Part shown: one piece after another, positions 45,369 to 51,595 of the stretch
How the letters are laid out: every line of letters starts with the position of its first letter
Position numbering within the stretch: the stretch's first letter is position 1
Origin: Persicirhabdus sediminis
GTDB taxonomy: Bacteria; Verrucomicrobiota; Verrucomicrobiia; Verrucomicrobiales; Akkermansiaceae
NCBI RefSeq assembly: GCF_016595495.1
Contig: NZ_JAENIM010000045.1
Span: 1 to 64,000, forward strand
Direction of reading: 5' to 3'
DNA: 64,000 bases
The notes under the pieces: model-generated
The model's database searches: none
Seen by the model: the letters and a program-made list of their open reading frames with translations, nothing else
Told to the model about the DNA's origin: nothing
Made by a program: the position numbers and the translations under genes

Positions 45369-46298
45369 TTACGATTCTAGCGCGGCCTCAGGTTCCTCTG
45401 CGATTTTCTCTGGCACTGGTTTGCGCTGGCGATAGGCCATAGGAGATTGGCCTACCGAGTTGCTAAATGCGCGGCTGAATGCCTGCAGCGACCCGTATCC
45501 ACACAAATCAGCCACTTCTGCAATTGGCAGCTGGCTGTTGCGCAGCATGCCCATGGCGCGGTTGAGACGATAATTACGCAGGTACTCACCTAAGGAAACC
45601 CCCGCCTGCTCGCGGAAAACAGCGCGCAAACGAGACTCAGACATAGACAGTGCCTCGGCAAAATCCGTCAGCAAAGTTACTTTGCCTGCTCGCTCCATCA
45701 ACAAGCGGTTGATGTCATTCAAAATCCCTGAGCCAGTTTCCCCCTGTTGTTCTACCAGCGCATGATCCACGCCGAGTTGCTGTTTCAGCATCATCAAAAG
45801 AATCCGCTGCAGCTGTGCTTGGAGCAAAAACTCTTCTACGTAGTTCACTTTCTTCTGTCCGACAGATGCCAGATAATGGGCGACAAAACTCTTTAAAATC
45901 TCTCTAGCCTGTCTCGGTAAATCTAGCACAGAGTATTTTAATGACACTAACGAGTCCTCCGGCTCGAATTCAAAAGTAATAAATAGCCAGTCAAATTTAC
46001 TCCTATCAATTCCGGAATAGTAGTGGAATTGATACGGGTGAATGAGCAATGCTTCACCCGGATTCACCGTCAATCCGCGGTGGTTAACATGTACTGTACC
46101 TGCTCCCTCAACCGCAACCAGTAATACAAATCTATGGTGCGATTTATTTGCTAAAGCCTGCTGCTGAAGCTCTTGCACATCGTGACGAGCAAATAGCAAC
46201 AGGTTCTTAGGTGAGGGAAAACTCCCACTCCCAACACCTGAAAAGTAATCGTCGGGTTCCGACAAGTAGTCCACTAATTTACGTAAATCTCCGTCCAT
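45369..46298 (-). CDS. AraC-family transcriptional regulator
   Basis: 309 aa. The N-terminal cupin-like sensor has VEGAGTVHVNHRGLTVNPGEALLIHPYQFHYYSG. The C-terminal double helix-turn-helix has LLTDFAEALSMSESRLRAVFREQAGVSLGEYLRNYRLNRAMGML and PIAEVADLCGYGSLQAFSRAFSNSVGQSPMAYRQR. It is divergent from the nagB-led operon across 134 bp that contain a dyad and a -10-like element, so it is the probable activator of that operon. Its ligand is likely an amino sugar or derivative, which is inference. Confidence 0.88.
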   Translation of the reverse strand: MDGDLRKLVDYLSEPDDYFSGVGSGSFPSPKNLLLFARHDVQELQQQALANKSHHRFVLLVAVEGAGTVHVNHRGLTVNPGEALLIHPYQFHYYSGIDRSKFDWLFITFEFEPEDSLVSLKYSVLDLPRQAREILKSFVAHYLASVGQKKVNYVEEFLLQAQLQRILLMMLKQQLGVDHALVEQQGETGSGILNDINRLLMERAGKVTLLTDFAEALSMSESRLRAVFREQAGVSLGEYLRNYRLNRAMGMLRNSQLPIAEVADLCGYGSLQAFSRAFSNSVGQSPMAYRQRKPVPEKIAEEPEAALES

Positions 46299-46372
46299 TT
46301 AACTTATCTATAATACCACCACCCCCCCATAATCAATCATTAATGTTAAATATTTCTCCCCATTGAAAACAT

Positions 46373-46410
46373 TTACACATCGTGTAACGACTCTCTGTGT
46401 ATCTATTATA
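46373..46410 (+). promoter_or_regulatory. Candidate activator-dependent promoter of the nagB operon
   Basis: Dyad TTACAC-ATC-GTGTAA at 46373-46387 lies where a -35 element would sit. The -10-like TATTAT is at 46404-46409, 23 bp before ATG 46433. A poor -35 overlapped by a regulator site is typical of AraC-type activation. By eye only. Confidence 0.45.
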
Positions 46411-46432
46411 GTTGGTAGCAAAACTTTTAATC

Positions 46433-47197
46433 ATGCCAGTCGAAATGATATCTGAACCAGCCAACGCTACTTTGAGAAAGAATATTCACGTCTCAGACAG
46501 TGCCGCGAAAGCAGCCGTTGCTATCGCCCGTAAGATCAGCAACGCTATCAAGCAACACCAACTGATAGGCAAAACTTTCCGTCTTGGCCTAGCCACCGGT
46601 GCTACTCCAGTTCCACTTTATAAAGAGCTCATCAAACTCTACCAACAAGGTGACGTTAACTTTAAAAACGTACACACCTACAACCTAGACGAGTACGATG
46701 AAATTTCTTTTGATAACCCAAACAGCTATCACGGATTCATGCGTGAAAATCTGTTTGACCACATCAACATTCCACTAGAGCAAACTCATTTCCCTAGCGG
46801 AGATGATCCAGCTGCCTACGACAGAGAAATCGCATCCGTTGGTGGTCTAGACCTACTCATCCTCGGCATCGGCAGCAACGGCCACATCGCCTTCAACGAG
46901 CCAGGATCTGAAAAAGACTCACCTAGCAGACTCATCGAGCTCGATGCCAGCACCATCGCTGACAACAAACAATACTTCCCTGACGGTGACATGCCAACAC
47001 GCGCTATCACTATGGGCCTGAAAACGATTCTGGACACCAAAACACTCGTGCTCATGGCATGGGGCGACAGCAAAGCCTCTATCATCGCCGAAAGCCTCAG
47101 CTGCACACCGTCCGCTGATCTTCCTGCATCTTTCCTCCAAGACCACCCCAATACCCTATATTTCCTCGACCACGGCTCAGCATCAAAACTTAGCTAA
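46433..47197 (+). CDS. nagB: Glucosamine-6-phosphate deaminase
   Basis: 254 aa. Converts GlcN-6-P to Fru-6-P and ammonia. Landmarks: LGLATGATPVPLYKEL near the N-terminus, NLDEYDEI with the catalytic Asp, the GIGSNGHIAFNEPGS loop with the active-site His/Glu, and TMGLKTILDTK. ATG 46433 is preferred to the upstream TTG 46412 as it gives the family length. First gene of a four-gene operon; the next starts 25 bp downstream. Confidence 0.93.
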   Translation: MPVEMISEPANATLRKNIHVSDSAAKAAVAIARKISNAIKQHQLIGKTFRLGLATGATPVPLYKELIKLYQQGDVNFKNVHTYNLDEYDEISFDNPNSYHGFMRENLFDHINIPLEQTHFPSGDDPAAYDREIASVGGLDLLILGIGSNGHIAFNEPGSEKDSPSRLIELDASTIADNKQYFPDGDMPTRAITMGLKTILDTKTLVLMAWGDSKASIIAESLSCTPSADLPASFLQDHPNTLYFLDHGSASKLS

Positions 47198-47222
47198 CTA
47201 AATTCAAAAAACTAATACCAAA

Positions 47223-48638
47223 ATGAAGTCTATCATCGAAAAAATTAATGACCTCGCCAAACCATTAGTTACTCCAGGTTTGGACCCTAACTTCATCCCC
47301 GCAATCAAGTGGATTGAGGCGTACGACTCACTAGCAAAAGAAACTGCTGGTAGCCGCGACGTCATCATCGACCTGCTACGCCCAGACGGCACAGGTAAGC
47401 GTGAGTCACTTGTTCTCTTCCCAGATCTTCCAGAATACACAGCCGCAAGCTTCTTGCGTGTTGAACGTCTCATCAAACAACTGCTCTGGCAGGTTGGTGG
47501 ATCCAACATCCTCATTGATGGCGCTGACGAATTCAAAGCCCAGCTAGAAGCTCACTTCGCAGCTGACGGCGCAGGTCATTTCGACAACCTAACGATTGCA
47601 CAAAAAGTGTACTCATCACCTATCAGCATCGAGAACAAAGCTCTCGCTGGTACCGCTGAGCCACAACTCAGCAAGGCTGACATGGGTGGTCACCTCGAAG
47701 GATACCGCATCGGATTCGACCTCGGTGGCAGTGACCGTAAGTGTGCCGCTGTGATCAACGGTGAAGTTGTATTCTCTACTGAAATCGCTTGGTCTCCATA
47801 CTTCGAAACTAATCCTGAGTACCACTTCAAAGGCATCCAAGACAGCTTAGAAAAAGCCGCTGAACACCTTCCGCGCATCGACGCCATCGGCGGCAGTGCA
47901 GCTGGAATCTACGTGGACAACCAGCCACGTGTAGCCTCACTCTTCCGCGGCCTCAGCCCAGAAGATTTTGATGCACAAGCAAAGCCAATCTTCGAAGCCA
48001 TCCAGAAAAAATGGGACAACGTGCCAATGATTGTGGTCAACGATGGTGATGTTAGCGCGCTGGCCGGAGCTATGGCTGGTGACTGCGACTCACTCCTCGG
48101 TATCGCTATGGGCACTAGCCTAGCAGCTGGTTACGTTGACGAGCAAAAGAAAATCACAAGCATGCTCAACGAGCTGGCATTTGCCCCAGTTGACTTTGCC
48201 GAAGACGCCGCTGTCGATGAGTGGTCACACGACAAAGGTTGTGGTGTTCAGTATTTCTCACAGCAAGCCGTTCAGCGCCTCAGCAAAGCTGCTGGCCTCG
48301 AATTCCCAGCTGACATGAAAGCTCCTGAGATCCTGGTAGAAGTACAGAAGCTGATGGAAAAAGAAGATCCAGCCGCCGTGCAGATCTACGAAACTATCGG
48401 TAGCTACCTCGGCTACACACTCGCTCTCTACGCCAAGTTCTACGGCCTCAAAGGCATCATGCTGCTAGGCCGCGTGATGACTGGTCAAGGTGGTGAACTC
48501 ATTGTCAAAGTAGCTGACGAAGTGCTCGCCAAAGAATACCCAGAAGTAGCTAAGCAACTGCGCACTGTGACTCCTGACGAAAAAACTAAGCGTCACGGCC
48601 AAGCCATCGCTGCAGCCAGCCTTCCTCAACTCGGATAG
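47223..48638 (+). CDS. ROK-family sugar kinase with N-terminal extension
   Basis: 471 aa. The C-terminal two thirds have the ROK/hexokinase fold: GFDLGGSDRKCA (phosphate 1), an IGGSAAGIYVD segment, NDGDVSALAGAMAG (catalytic Asp region) and LLGIAMGTSLAAGY. About 155 residues precede it with no recognised domain. The zinc motif CxCGxxGCxE of many ROK kinases is absent. Placed after nagB, the likely substrate is GlcNAc, GlcN or ManNAc; not proved by sequence. Confidence 0.8.
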   Translation: MKSIIEKINDLAKPLVTPGLDPNFIPAIKWIEAYDSLAKETAGSRDVIIDLLRPDGTGKRESLVLFPDLPEYTAASFLRVERLIKQLLWQVGGSNILIDGADEFKAQLEAHFAADGAGHFDNLTIAQKVYSSPISIENKALAGTAEPQLSKADMGGHLEGYRIGFDLGGSDRKCAAVINGEVVFSTEIAWSPYFETNPEYHFKGIQDSLEKAAEHLPRIDAIGGSAAGIYVDNQPRVASLFRGLSPEDFDAQAKPIFEAIQKKWDNVPMIVVNDGDVSALAGAMAGDCDSLLGIAMGTSLAAGYVDEQKKITSMLNELAFAPVDFAEDAAVDEWSHDKGCGVQYFSQQAVQRLSKAAGLEFPADMKAPEILVEVQKLMEKEDPAAVQIYETIGSYLGYTLALYAKFYGLKGIMLLGRVMTGQGGELIVKVADEVLAKEYPEVAKQLRTVTPDEKTKRHGQAIAAASLPQLG

Positions 48639-48649
48639 AATTTTTTACC

Positions 48650-49474
48650 ATGGACATTTACATTCCAGATTCACTAGACCGCGATCAGGCTCTAGCAAGA
48701 ACAACACACCTAGGCATTGGTGCCCACCAAGACGACTTGGAATTCATGGCAATGGACGGCATTCTCAAATGCTTCCAGAAAAAAGACCAATGGTTCGCTG
48801 GCATCACTTGTACTAACGGCGCGGGTAGCGCCCGCTCTGGTGCCTACGCTGAATTCACCGACGAAGAAATGGTGCTTTGCCGCCAGCAGGAACAGCGCAC
48901 CGCTGCAGACATCGGCCAGTACGCCTACATGTCCCAGCTCATGCTTCCTAGCAGCGCAGTAAAAAGCAACAACGACGAGTTTGTTAGCTCGCTAGCAAAA
49001 CTCATCGAAGACAGCCAAGCTGAAGTCATCTATACTCACAACCCTGCTGACAAACACGCCACTCACATTGGTGTATTTGCCGGCGTGCTTAAAGCGATTC
49101 GCTCGCTGCCAGCAGACAAGCGTCCTAAGCAACTCATCGGTTGTGAAGTGTGGCGCAACCTCGATTGGCTCGATGATGACAAAAAAGTTGTCATGGACTT
49201 GACCGCCCATCAGAACCTAGCAGCCGCTCTAAACGGAGTCTTTGATTCTCAAATCTCTGGCGGCAAGCGATACGATTTAGCCGTGCAAGGACGCCGTGCC
49301 GCTAATGCTACGTTTTTTGATTCACACTCTACTGACGACGCCGAGTCTATCGCCTTTGGCATTGACCTCAGCGCTCTAATTAGCGATGAGTCTATCGACC
49401 CTAAAACATATATTGCCAGCCTTATCAACGACTTCAAAAATGACGTCGATGACGCGCTAAGCAATTTCTTCTAA
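48650..49474 (+). CDS. PIG-L/LmbE-family deacetylase
   Basis: 274 aa. Zinc-dependent N-acetyl-sugar deacetylase fold: IGAHQDDLEF with the AHxDD motif (Asp28 catalytic base, His26 and Asp29 metal ligands) and TLNPADKH-type HNPADKHATHIGV. No signal peptide, so cytoplasmic. It starts 11 bp after the ROK gene. In the family, members deacetylate GlcNAc-linked molecules or diacetylchitobiose. In this operon it is the only visible candidate for removing the acetyl group that NagA normally removes. Confidence 0.88.
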   Translation: MDIYIPDSLDRDQALARTTHLGIGAHQDDLEFMAMDGILKCFQKKDQWFAGITCTNGAGSARSGAYAEFTDEEMVLCRQQEQRTAADIGQYAYMSQLMLPSSAVKSNNDEFVSSLAKLIEDSQAEVIYTHNPADKHATHIGVFAGVLKAIRSLPADKRPKQLIGCEVWRNLDWLDDDKKVVMDLTAHQNLAAALNGVFDSQISGGKRYDLAVQGRRAANATFFDSHSTDDAESIAFGIDLSALISDESIDPKTYIASLINDFKNDVDDALSNFF

Positions 49475-49501
49475 ACTAACACTCACAACACAAACACTAA
49501 C

Positions 49502-51595
49502 ATGCCTCTAGGAATACTAGACTGGGGAATCATTGCTGGATTCTTCATCGTCTCATTAGGAATCGGCGTCTGGGCTTCTCGCTCAGCCGGAAAAAGCTCT
49601 AAAGAATTCTTCCTCGGAGGCCGAAGCATGCCTTGGTGGTTGCTCGGCGTATCGATGGTGGCGACCACCTTCTCAACAGATACACCTAACCTAGTAGCTG
49701 GTCTTGTACGCTCAGATGGCGTATCAGGAAACTGGTGCTGGTGGGGCTTCCTGTTATCGGGCATGCTTACAGTGTTTGTGTTTGCCAAGCTCTGGCGTCG
49801 CTCGGAAGTACTCACTGATGTTGAGTTCTACGAGCTGCGCTTCAGCGGCAAGGCAGCTGCGTTTTTACGTGGCTTCCGCTCACTCTACCTCGGCCTCGTC
49901 TTTAACGTGCTCATTATGGGTGCGGTTAGTTTGGCTGTAGTAAAGTTTGGTGAGACTGTACTTAGTATCCCCGGCTGGCAAATGCTCTTAGCTGCTGGTC
50001 TGGTAACGCTTGGTTACTCATCACTCGGTGGCCTCAAAGGCGTTATTTGGACTGACTTTGTACAGTTCATCCTCGCCATGATTGGTTCATTCTGGGCCGC
50101 CTACTACATCATCAGCCTAGATGCAGTGGGTAGTATCAGCACGCTACTCAATCACTCCGAGGTATTGCCAAAATCCAACATCTTCCCTGATTTCACAGAT
50201 CCTAGCAGCTGGATCCCTATCATCTTAATTCCTGTTGCCGTGACTTGGTGGGCGACCTACTACCCAGGTGCTGAGCCAGGTGGTGGTGGTTACATCGTCC
50301 AGCGTATGCTCTCCGCCAAAGACGAGAAAAATGCGATTGGTGCCACTCTCTTCTTCAACATCGCTCACTACGCTCTGCGCCCGTGGCCATGGATTCTCAT
50401 CGCTCTAGCATCTATCATTCTTGTTCCGCTTAAGATTGATCAGGACTATACCAAAGGGCACCTGCGCCCACACGAAAAGACCGTTGCTAAAATTGAAGCT
50501 GAGCTCAATCCAGCCTCACACGCAAAGATGGTTGAGACTCTCACTGCAGACCTTGAAAAACTTAAAGCTGGTGGCAATGAAGAGAAAATTGCGAATGCTC
50601 AAAGACTGCACGACATTGTTAGCTCGAACCCAGACTCTATCGAAATCAAGGCTCTTGCTTACCTCTGCCAAGTAGAATCTACCATCAACTTGGACGGCAG
50701 CTGCACTCCGCTAGCTAAAGAATCGTTGGTTCACATGTATCTGGCTAACGACATTTCAGTCGACAAGTTAGGGCAAGACCTTGGTTACCCAACCATGATC
50801 AAGCTGCTGCCAACGGGTCTGCTCGGTCTGGTATCCGCCTCATTGATTGCGGCATTCATGTCTACCATGTCTACACAGGTCAACCTTGGCGCCTCCTATT
50901 TGGTCAATGATTTCTACGCACGCTTCATCCACAAGGATTCTTCTGAGAAGCACTTAGTGATGACTGGCCGCCTCGTTACCGTGCTCATGATTTGCATGGG
51001 TTCAGGTTTAGGTCTCATCCTAACGGATGCAAGCCAAGCATTTAAGCTGATGCTTCTGATTGGTGCGGGCACTGGCCCAGTATACATTCTGCGCTGGTTC
51101 TGGTGGCGCGTGAGTGCGATTTCAGAAATCACAGCGATGGTTTCTGCGCTAGTGATCTCAGGTTTCACTACCTTCTACATGGAGAGATTCGTGGGCGCTC
51201 AATTCATGAAAGACCACGATTGGTCCATCATGTTAGTCGCAGCGCTATTAACTACAGCGATCTGGATCATCGTCACTATCCTAACTAAGCCGACCGAAGA
51301 AAAAACACTTCTCTCATTCTACCAAAAAGTACAACCTGGTGGAGCTGGCTGGAAAACAATCCGTCAGAAAGCTGAAGATAAAGGCCTTGAGCTCGATCCT
51401 AACTCAGCTGGCTGGGATGACATCCCATACGGCATCCTCTGTACTCTGTTCTCCTCAGCTGGTGTCTACACCGCGCTGTTTGCTACAGGCGAGTGGATCT
51501 TTGGCAACGTTGCGCCGGCTAGCTGCTACACACTCATCAGTGTAGTCTCATTTGGCCTCGTCATGAAGTTCTGGAAAAAACTCAGAATGGACTAA
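49502..51595 (+). CDS. Sodium:solute symporter (SSS family)
   Basis: 697 aa, about 13-15 hydrophobic segments. SSS hallmarks are FFLGGRSMPWWLLGVSMVATTFSTDTPNLVAGLVR and the GLKGVIWTDFVQF segment. A charged cytoplasmic or periplasmic insertion of about 100 residues (LRPHEKTVAKIEAELNPASHAKM...) interrupts the core. The 3' end of a four-gene operon 27 bp after the deacetylase. The natural inference is Na+-coupled uptake of the amino sugar used by the upstream enzymes. Confidence 0.88.
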   Translation: MPLGILDWGIIAGFFIVSLGIGVWASRSAGKSSKEFFLGGRSMPWWLLGVSMVATTFSTDTPNLVAGLVRSDGVSGNWCWWGFLLSGMLTVFVFAKLWRRSEVLTDVEFYELRFSGKAAAFLRGFRSLYLGLVFNVLIMGAVSLAVVKFGETVLSIPGWQMLLAAGLVTLGYSSLGGLKGVIWTDFVQFILAMIGSFWAAYYIISLDAVGSISTLLNHSEVLPKSNIFPDFTDPSSWIPIILIPVAVTWWATYYPGAEPGGGGYIVQRMLSAKDEKNAIGATLFFNIAHYALRPWPWILIALASIILVPLKIDQDYTKGHLRPHEKTVAKIEAELNPASHAKMVETLTADLEKLKAGGNEEKIANAQRLHDIVSSNPDSIEIKALAYLCQVESTINLDGSCTPLAKESLVHMYLANDISVDKLGQDLGYPTMIKLLPTGLLGLVSASLIAAFMSTMSTQVNLGASYLVNDFYARFIHKDSSEKHLVMTGRLVTVLMICMGSGLGLILTDASQAFKLMLLIGAGTGPVYILRWFWWRVSAISEITAMVSALVISGFTTFYMERFVGAQFMKDHDWSIMLVAALLTTAIWIIVTILTKPTEEKTLLSFYQKVQPGGAGWKTIRQKAEDKGLELDPNSAGWDDIPYGILCTLFSSAGVYTALFATGEWIFGNVAPASCYTLISVVSFGLVMKFWKKLRMD

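Follow-up and report, generated by a model that had tools for sequence, protein, structure and literature searches.

How does a bacterium use N-acetylglucosamine (GlcNAc) when it lacks NagA, the deacetylase that serves GlcNAc use in almost all other bacteria and the marker by which genome-based metabolic reconstructions recognise it? The question is raised by an operon of Persicirhabdus sediminis (Verrucomicrobiota, Akkermansiaceae), located at positions 46299 to 51595 of the stretch of DNA analysed here (the window: 64,000 nucleotides, positions 1 to 64,000 of contig NZ_JAENIM010000045.1), in which a protein of the PIG-L fold stands where NagA would be expected. We consider it probable that the operon breaks down GlcNAc with a zinc enzyme of the PIG-L fold in place of the usual NagA, and that this displacement extends across the phylum.

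The operon and its genome

Domains were assigned by Pfam, and equivalogs by the curated cut-offs of NCBIfam and TIGRFAM. Four genes follow one another on the forward strand: a NagB-family glucosamine-6-phosphate deaminase (46412-47197), a ROK-family kinase (47223-48638), a PIG-L/LmbE-fold deacetylase (48650-49474) and a sodium:solute symporter (SSS; 49502-51595, PF00474 (SSF)). The gaps between them measure 25, 11 and 27 bp, and an AraC-family gene lies divergent from nagB. A first-pass annotation had described this five-gene layout, with gaps of 11-27 bp, and every gene was found in its place. The PIG-L protein reaches 55 bits with PF02585 (gathering score 28.2), its only match, and falls outside the NagA families TIGR00221 and PF01979; the ROK protein scores 29.5 bits with PF00480 (cut-off 22.9). 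NagB passes the cut-off of PF01182 (82.6 bits) and misses that of TIGR00502 (213.3 bits against 236.9); its best match is the NagB half of NF002557 (PRK02122; 244.8 bits), a family in which NagB is fused to PIG-L.

Read as a pathway, secreted GH20-type enzymes would free GlcNAc, the symporter, a predicted amino-sugar importer, would bring it in with sodium, and the ROK protein, a predicted GlcNAc 6-kinase on the strength of its fold and its NagA-paired relatives, would convert it to GlcNAc-6-phosphate (GlcNAc-6-P). The PIG-L protein, replacing NagA as the predicted GlcNAc-6-P deacetylase, would act through a single zinc ion held by HxDD and DxHxxH motifs, and NagB, assigned to its family by sequence, would deaminate the product, glucosamine-6-phosphate, to fructose-6-phosphate.

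The genome-wide search for nagA that the first-pass annotation had proposed as a check of this idea found none. The assembly comprises 4.17 Mb in 47 contigs and is 96.7% complete, so that about 3% may be missing; no gene in it passes TIGR00221, the best match being a 26-bit fragment of one PF01979 protein. The genome has just two PF01979 proteins, and NCBIfam identifies them as urease subunit alpha and dihydroorotase, which disposes of both as a hidden NagA. The operon PIG-L is the one PF02585 protein, and three GH20 hexosaminidase genes make a source of GlcNAc plausible.

PIG-L and NagA behind one kinase family

Comparison of PIG-L and nagA across Verrucomicrobiota, also suggested by the first-pass annotation, revealed mutual replacement in both genome content and operon position. 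Among 212 genomes of the phylum that are at least 90% complete, NagA reaches its cut-off in 8 of the 65 with the PIG-L protein, against 92 of the 147 without it; where the ROK kinase is present the counts are 8 of 39 and 82 of 105 (Fisher values of 4e-12 and 5e-10, respectively, both of which ignore shared ancestry). Within the window's order a PIG-L orthologue is carried by 54 of 113 genomes. NagA exceeds the curated cut-off in 11 of these, against 51 of the remaining 59, and, among ROK-bearing genomes of the order, in 3 of 16 against 38 of 41. A further 50 genomes with PIG-L clusters include 31 without any NagA-like protein at E<=1e-10 and four that pass the NagA cut-off.

Many relatives also possess a second module, a NagB paralogue (about 30% identity) beside a NagA-like protein of about 300 residues whose match to TIGR00221 is confined to the middle of the model (for example G076:C105:1754-3375, G003:C99:37921-39512 and G005:C570:15079-16703). 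The module is absent from the window's genome.

The replacement in operon position concerns the gene directly after ROK. Among the 212 genomes this is PIG-L in 30 and NagA in 16 (17 loci), and no genome has both; the gaps that separate ROK from its deacetylase are mostly 15-150 bp, rising to about 1,260 bp in two of the 30 with PIG-L. Each of the NagA partners passes the GlcNAc-6-P deacetylase equivalog cut-off (three were rechecked). Locus L168 has the order ROK-NagA-SSS, the same layout as in the window except that NagA takes the slot of PIG-L, and its symporter is 40% identical to that of the window. From these comparisons, non-orthologous displacement of NagA by PIG-L is the best reading.

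The same position is occupied by yet another protein. In at least six genomes that carry neither NagA nor a window-type PIG-L, the gene immediately after ROK belongs to a second PIG-L subfamily (motif SPHPDDE), confirmed by Pfam in G233, G191, G277, G187, G285 and G308 and without BLAST similarity to the window PIG-L. NagB comes next in the first four of these, and in G233 a homologue of N-acetylhexosamine 1-kinase (1e-84) and an epimerase-like protein lie further along the operon. It is to this group that the window's AraC (43% identity to that of G233) and, on a quick ROK tree, its kinase are nearest. Three other genomes devoid of NagA and of window-type PIG-L (G208, G168 and G250) have no deacetylase adjoining ROK. 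On balance, we favor the view that GlcNAc-6-P deacetylation in Verrucomicrobiota is carried out by two separately recruited PIG-L subfamilies and by NagA, exchanged beside a new GlcNAc kinase of the ROK family that has no zinc motif.

The wider context was assessed in 80 loci from named genomes, taking neighbors within 6 kb. Near PIG-L we found ROK in 64, NagB in 48, GH20 in 11 and NAGLU, an alpha-N-acetylglucosaminidase, in three, the most frequent order being ROK-PIG-L-NagB. In a genome of the window's family that lacks nagA (G092), a cluster with the order GH20-GH20-NagB-ROK-SSS-NAGLU (L054) ties ROK and the symporter, the latter 43% identical to the window's, to released GlcNAc. ROK-PIG-L genes also occur in two metagenome-assembled genomes labelled Chloroflexota and Acidobacteriota (L118, Anaerolineae, and L150, Terriglobia), for which gene transfer or mis-binning is a possible cause.

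That the PIG-L protein has an unrelated role, for instance in thiol or cell-wall metabolism, with an incidental place in the operon and no use of GlcNAc, seems to us highly improbable. The fold does include a hydratase, GalB, the protein weakly resembles the BshB1 and BshB2 models, at scores well short of the cut-offs (27.6 bits against 195), and in one locus (L052:10043-13749, from G089) genes for L-serine dehydratase, L-threonine 3-dehydrogenase and glycine C-acetyltransferase stand behind ROK-PIG-L; a homologue of the last adjoins PIG-L in G096 and G105 as well (L055 and L056). Such a role is, however, hard to square with ROK-PIG-L adjacency in 30 genomes, with the exchange of PIG-L and NagA in a single slot, with the frequent return of the order ROK-PIG-L-NagB and with the linked GH20 and NAGLU genes.

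The possibility that the substrate is another N-acyl amino sugar (N-acetylgalactosamine (GalNAc), N-acetylmannosamine or a modified GlcNAc), deacylated by PIG-L, draws on a NagB below its TIGR00502 cut-off, a symporter whose amino-sugar substrate is a prediction and the presence of N-acetylmannosamine kinases among the structural matches of the ROK protein. Nevertheless, NagB enzymes make fructose-6-phosphate from glucosamine-6-phosphate, the operon contains no AgaS or NanE-type gene, the glycosidases linked in relatives include NAGLU, and the partner NagAs are GlcNAc-6-P deacetylases by their equivalog cut-off. We regard this alternative as very unlikely.

Replacement of NagA in a GlcNAc route remains the reading we prefer, and several observations count against it. 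Besides the shared ancestry that the Fisher values ignore, 6 of the 30 ROK-PIG-L genomes carry NagA too. In one family of the Verrucomicrobiales (f4) PIG-L has no ROK neighbor and about half of the genomes also contain full-length NagA, so that an additional function of PIG-L is possible in this family. The NagA-paired kinases form one clade on the quick ROK tree, so that the exchange may represent only one or a few events, and the SSS and AraC genes are frequently unlinked in related genomes. Finally, the sequence leaves the order of deacetylation and phosphorylation undecided, and the activity of PIG-L is itself predicted.

The deacetylase, the kinase and the order of steps

The window PIG-L carries AHQDDLE and DKHATH, the motif of the zinc site and general base, and the corresponding [AS]HxDDxE and DxHxxH are intact in all 115 stand-alone PIG-Ls. 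Its AlphaFold2 model (pLDDT 91.7) has the LmbE fold (Z 24.9 to 2ixd, with a root-mean-square deviation (rmsd) of 2.1 over 204 residues) and has its closest matches in BC1534 and BshB, at Z about 25 and rmsd 2.1-2.2; the archaeal diacetylchitobiose deacetylases come next, with 219 residues aligned at Z about 22, and then MshB (Z 18.4). By sequence, its relatives in the PDB are weak profile matches only. No solved GlcNAc-6-P deacetylase of the PIG-L fold is named among the Foldseek and structure matches, which has no bearing on function. Orthology to BshB was considered and rejected, the scores with TIGR04000 and TIGR04001 being 27.6 and 25.3 bits against cut-offs of 195.25 and 182.5.

The kinase is 471 residues long, with a ROK domain that begins at about residue 159-163. 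An N-terminal extension of roughly 155 residues and a missing zinc motif had both been remarked on in the first-pass annotation: the extension is real, measures about 158 residues and is kept in 20 of 20 aligned relatives, and none of the 97 proteins in the ROK tree set, among them the window's, has CxCGxxGCxE. The long, zinc-motif-free ROK is a conserved family. In the AlphaFold2 model (pLDDT 91.2) residues 159-471 align with ROK kinases, at Z 26.5 to 2qm1 and, over residues 160-469, Z 24.8 to the GlcNAc kinase 7p9l with GlcNAc-6-P. Glucokinases match at a similar score, and the fold alone leaves the sugar substrate unsettled. A search of the PDB, profile search included, found no sequence relatives of this protein.

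The extension (47223-47696 in the window) is confidently predicted to adopt a beta-beta-helix-beta pattern and contains a conserved LDPxF...LLWxxGG...FD; no match to it was found by sequence, the model did not link it to a known fold, and no search with the extension alone was made. It is possibly a regulatory or dimerisation domain. The same ROK gene also occurs in L176:8439-12483 and L177:8660-12723, followed by a nucleotidyltransferase and an SSS homologue and without an adjoining deacetylase; L177 adds an APH-type kinase resembling N-acetylhexosamine 1-kinase. These clusters perhaps serve anabolic salvage of N-acetylhexosamines.

A genus of the window's family whose genomes are small, probably Akkermansia, has ROK and NagA without PIG-L. 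Akkermansia muciniphila is reported to use GlcNAc, and in minimal medium to need either GlcNAc or GalNAc (PMC6163243), which fits ROK as a GlcNAc kinase in this genus.

The first-pass annotation had left the substrate of PIG-L as GlcNAc or GlcNAc-6-P. Both the absence of nagA and the exchange of the two deacetylases lend support to deacetylation by PIG-L, with GlcNAc-6-P as the likelier of the two substrates. The main alternative is that deacetylation comes first; PIG-L would then act on free GlcNAc and ROK would be a glucosamine kinase feeding NagB. This order finds some support in the solved structures closest by fold, BshB (Z 24.8) and the diacetylchitobiose deacetylases (Z 22), whose GlcNAc-containing substrates carry no phosphate, and in the archaeal chitin route, which includes TkDAC (PMC4101496) and in which an unphosphorylated sugar is deacetylated. 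Against it stands the same ROK family directly upstream of a true NagA in 16 genomes, where GlcNAc-6-P is the expected product of the kinase; the match of the model to a GlcNAc kinase with bound GlcNAc-6-P points the same way, although many ROK hexokinases match likewise. NagA acts on the 6-phosphate, and its pairing with this ROK family makes phosphorylation before deacetylation likelier. We therefore judge deacetylation first to be unlikely. That NagA and PIG-L alternate behind a single ROK family favors GlcNAc-6-P as the substrate of PIG-L, and falls short of proof.

In the relatives, NagB and a PIG-L domain frequently form one fusion protein (NF002557/PRK02122). Eleven readable loci carry such a fusion as well as a stand-alone PIG-L, and in 10 of them the catalytic HxDD histidine is missing from the fused domain: the intact motif SPHPDDD is replaced by SPEPxDD (such as SPEPLDD), SPEPHDA or SAEPQDA. 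Genes of this kind are found at L061:7178-9070 and L068:6882-8831, and in L082, L083, L084, L088, L095, L107 and L137. Together with the intact motifs of the stand-alone proteins, this loss fits the stand-alone PIG-L, and not the decayed fused domain, as the active enzyme. The fused domain of L180 still reads SPHPDDD despite a stand-alone PIG-L gene in the locus. The window PIG-L has no BLAST similarity to the fused domain, which rejects its derivation as a detached piece of the fusion and makes separate recruitment likelier.

As for the window's own NagB, D93, H158 and E163 are invariant in the alignment, and it carries NGH where most aligned relatives carry DGH. The first listed start codon of nagB is TTG, with alternative ATGs at 46433 and 46445.

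Regulation, meaning and known systems

The AraC-family regulator (45369-46298, reverse strand; HTH_18 and AraC_binding in Pfam) probably controls the operon. Homologues with 39-43% identity are divergent from the ROK-NagB clusters with the second PIG-L in G233 and G187, and others, about 30% identical, are divergent from NagB in Opitutia-type loci, which have the order NagB(fused)-ROK-PIG-L. Between AraC and nagB lies the divergent promoter region (46299-46411), which includes an 11-nucleotide near-repeat, TATCTATAATA (46305-46315) and TATCTATTATA (46400-46410). The two copies are a possible operator pair; two-copy repeats of this length often arise by chance. At the other end of the operon, the sequences in the PDB nearest to the symporter are SGLT-type structures.

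The PIG-L fold is known from the biosynthesis of thiols, antibiotics and lipid anchors. If our reading is correct, then the fold gains a catabolic role in bacteria, on a sugar phosphate, and GlcNAc-6-P deacetylases include a second class, made up of PIG-L enzymes, that had gone unrecognised. Many Verrucomicrobiota that seem unable to use GlcNAc, a component of chitin, peptidoglycan and animal glycans, would be able to do so, and the annotations of ROK and PIG-L proteins beside nagB would change. One survey of genomes from the gut recorded no GlcNAc catabolic pathway in the Verrucomicrobia that it covered (PMC5583593). In the open-access literature we found no paper linking PIG-L or LmbE with nagB, with NagA replacement or with Verrucomicrobia.

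Among known systems, the bacillithiol and mycothiol deacetylases BshB and MshB offer the closest solved fold and share the metal site of HxDD and a second histidine; unlike the window PIG-L, which scores far below the BshB cut-offs, they are biosynthetic and lie outside sugar-catabolic operons. A GlcNAc deacetylase of Cyclobacterium marinum (CE14/PIG-L) is reportedly a PIG-L-type enzyme acting on free GlcNAc, and provides a lead; the open-access literature yielded no paper that gives its sequence context. The archaeal diacetylchitobiose deacetylases (TkDAC and Pyrococcus Dac) likewise have the PIG-L fold and a role in amino-sugar catabolism, with TkDAC acting in a pathway that breaks down chitin (PMC4101496), whereas their identity to the window protein is 12-14% and their substrate is unphosphorylated GlcNAc2. 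The PRK02122/NF002557 fusions, like the window operon, bring NagB and a PIG-L domain together, and the window NagB is nearest to their NagB half; their PIG-L domain differs in being BLAST-unrelated and, in 10 of the 11 readable loci shared with a stand-alone PIG-L, devoid of the HxDD histidine. The classical NagK/NagA/NagB route shares with the window operon a kinase, a deacetylase and the NagB deaminase, and its true NagA accompanies the same ROK family in related genomes. What sets the window operon apart is a deacetylase of the PIG-L rather than the amidohydrolase fold, and a kinase that is a long ROK without the zinc motif.

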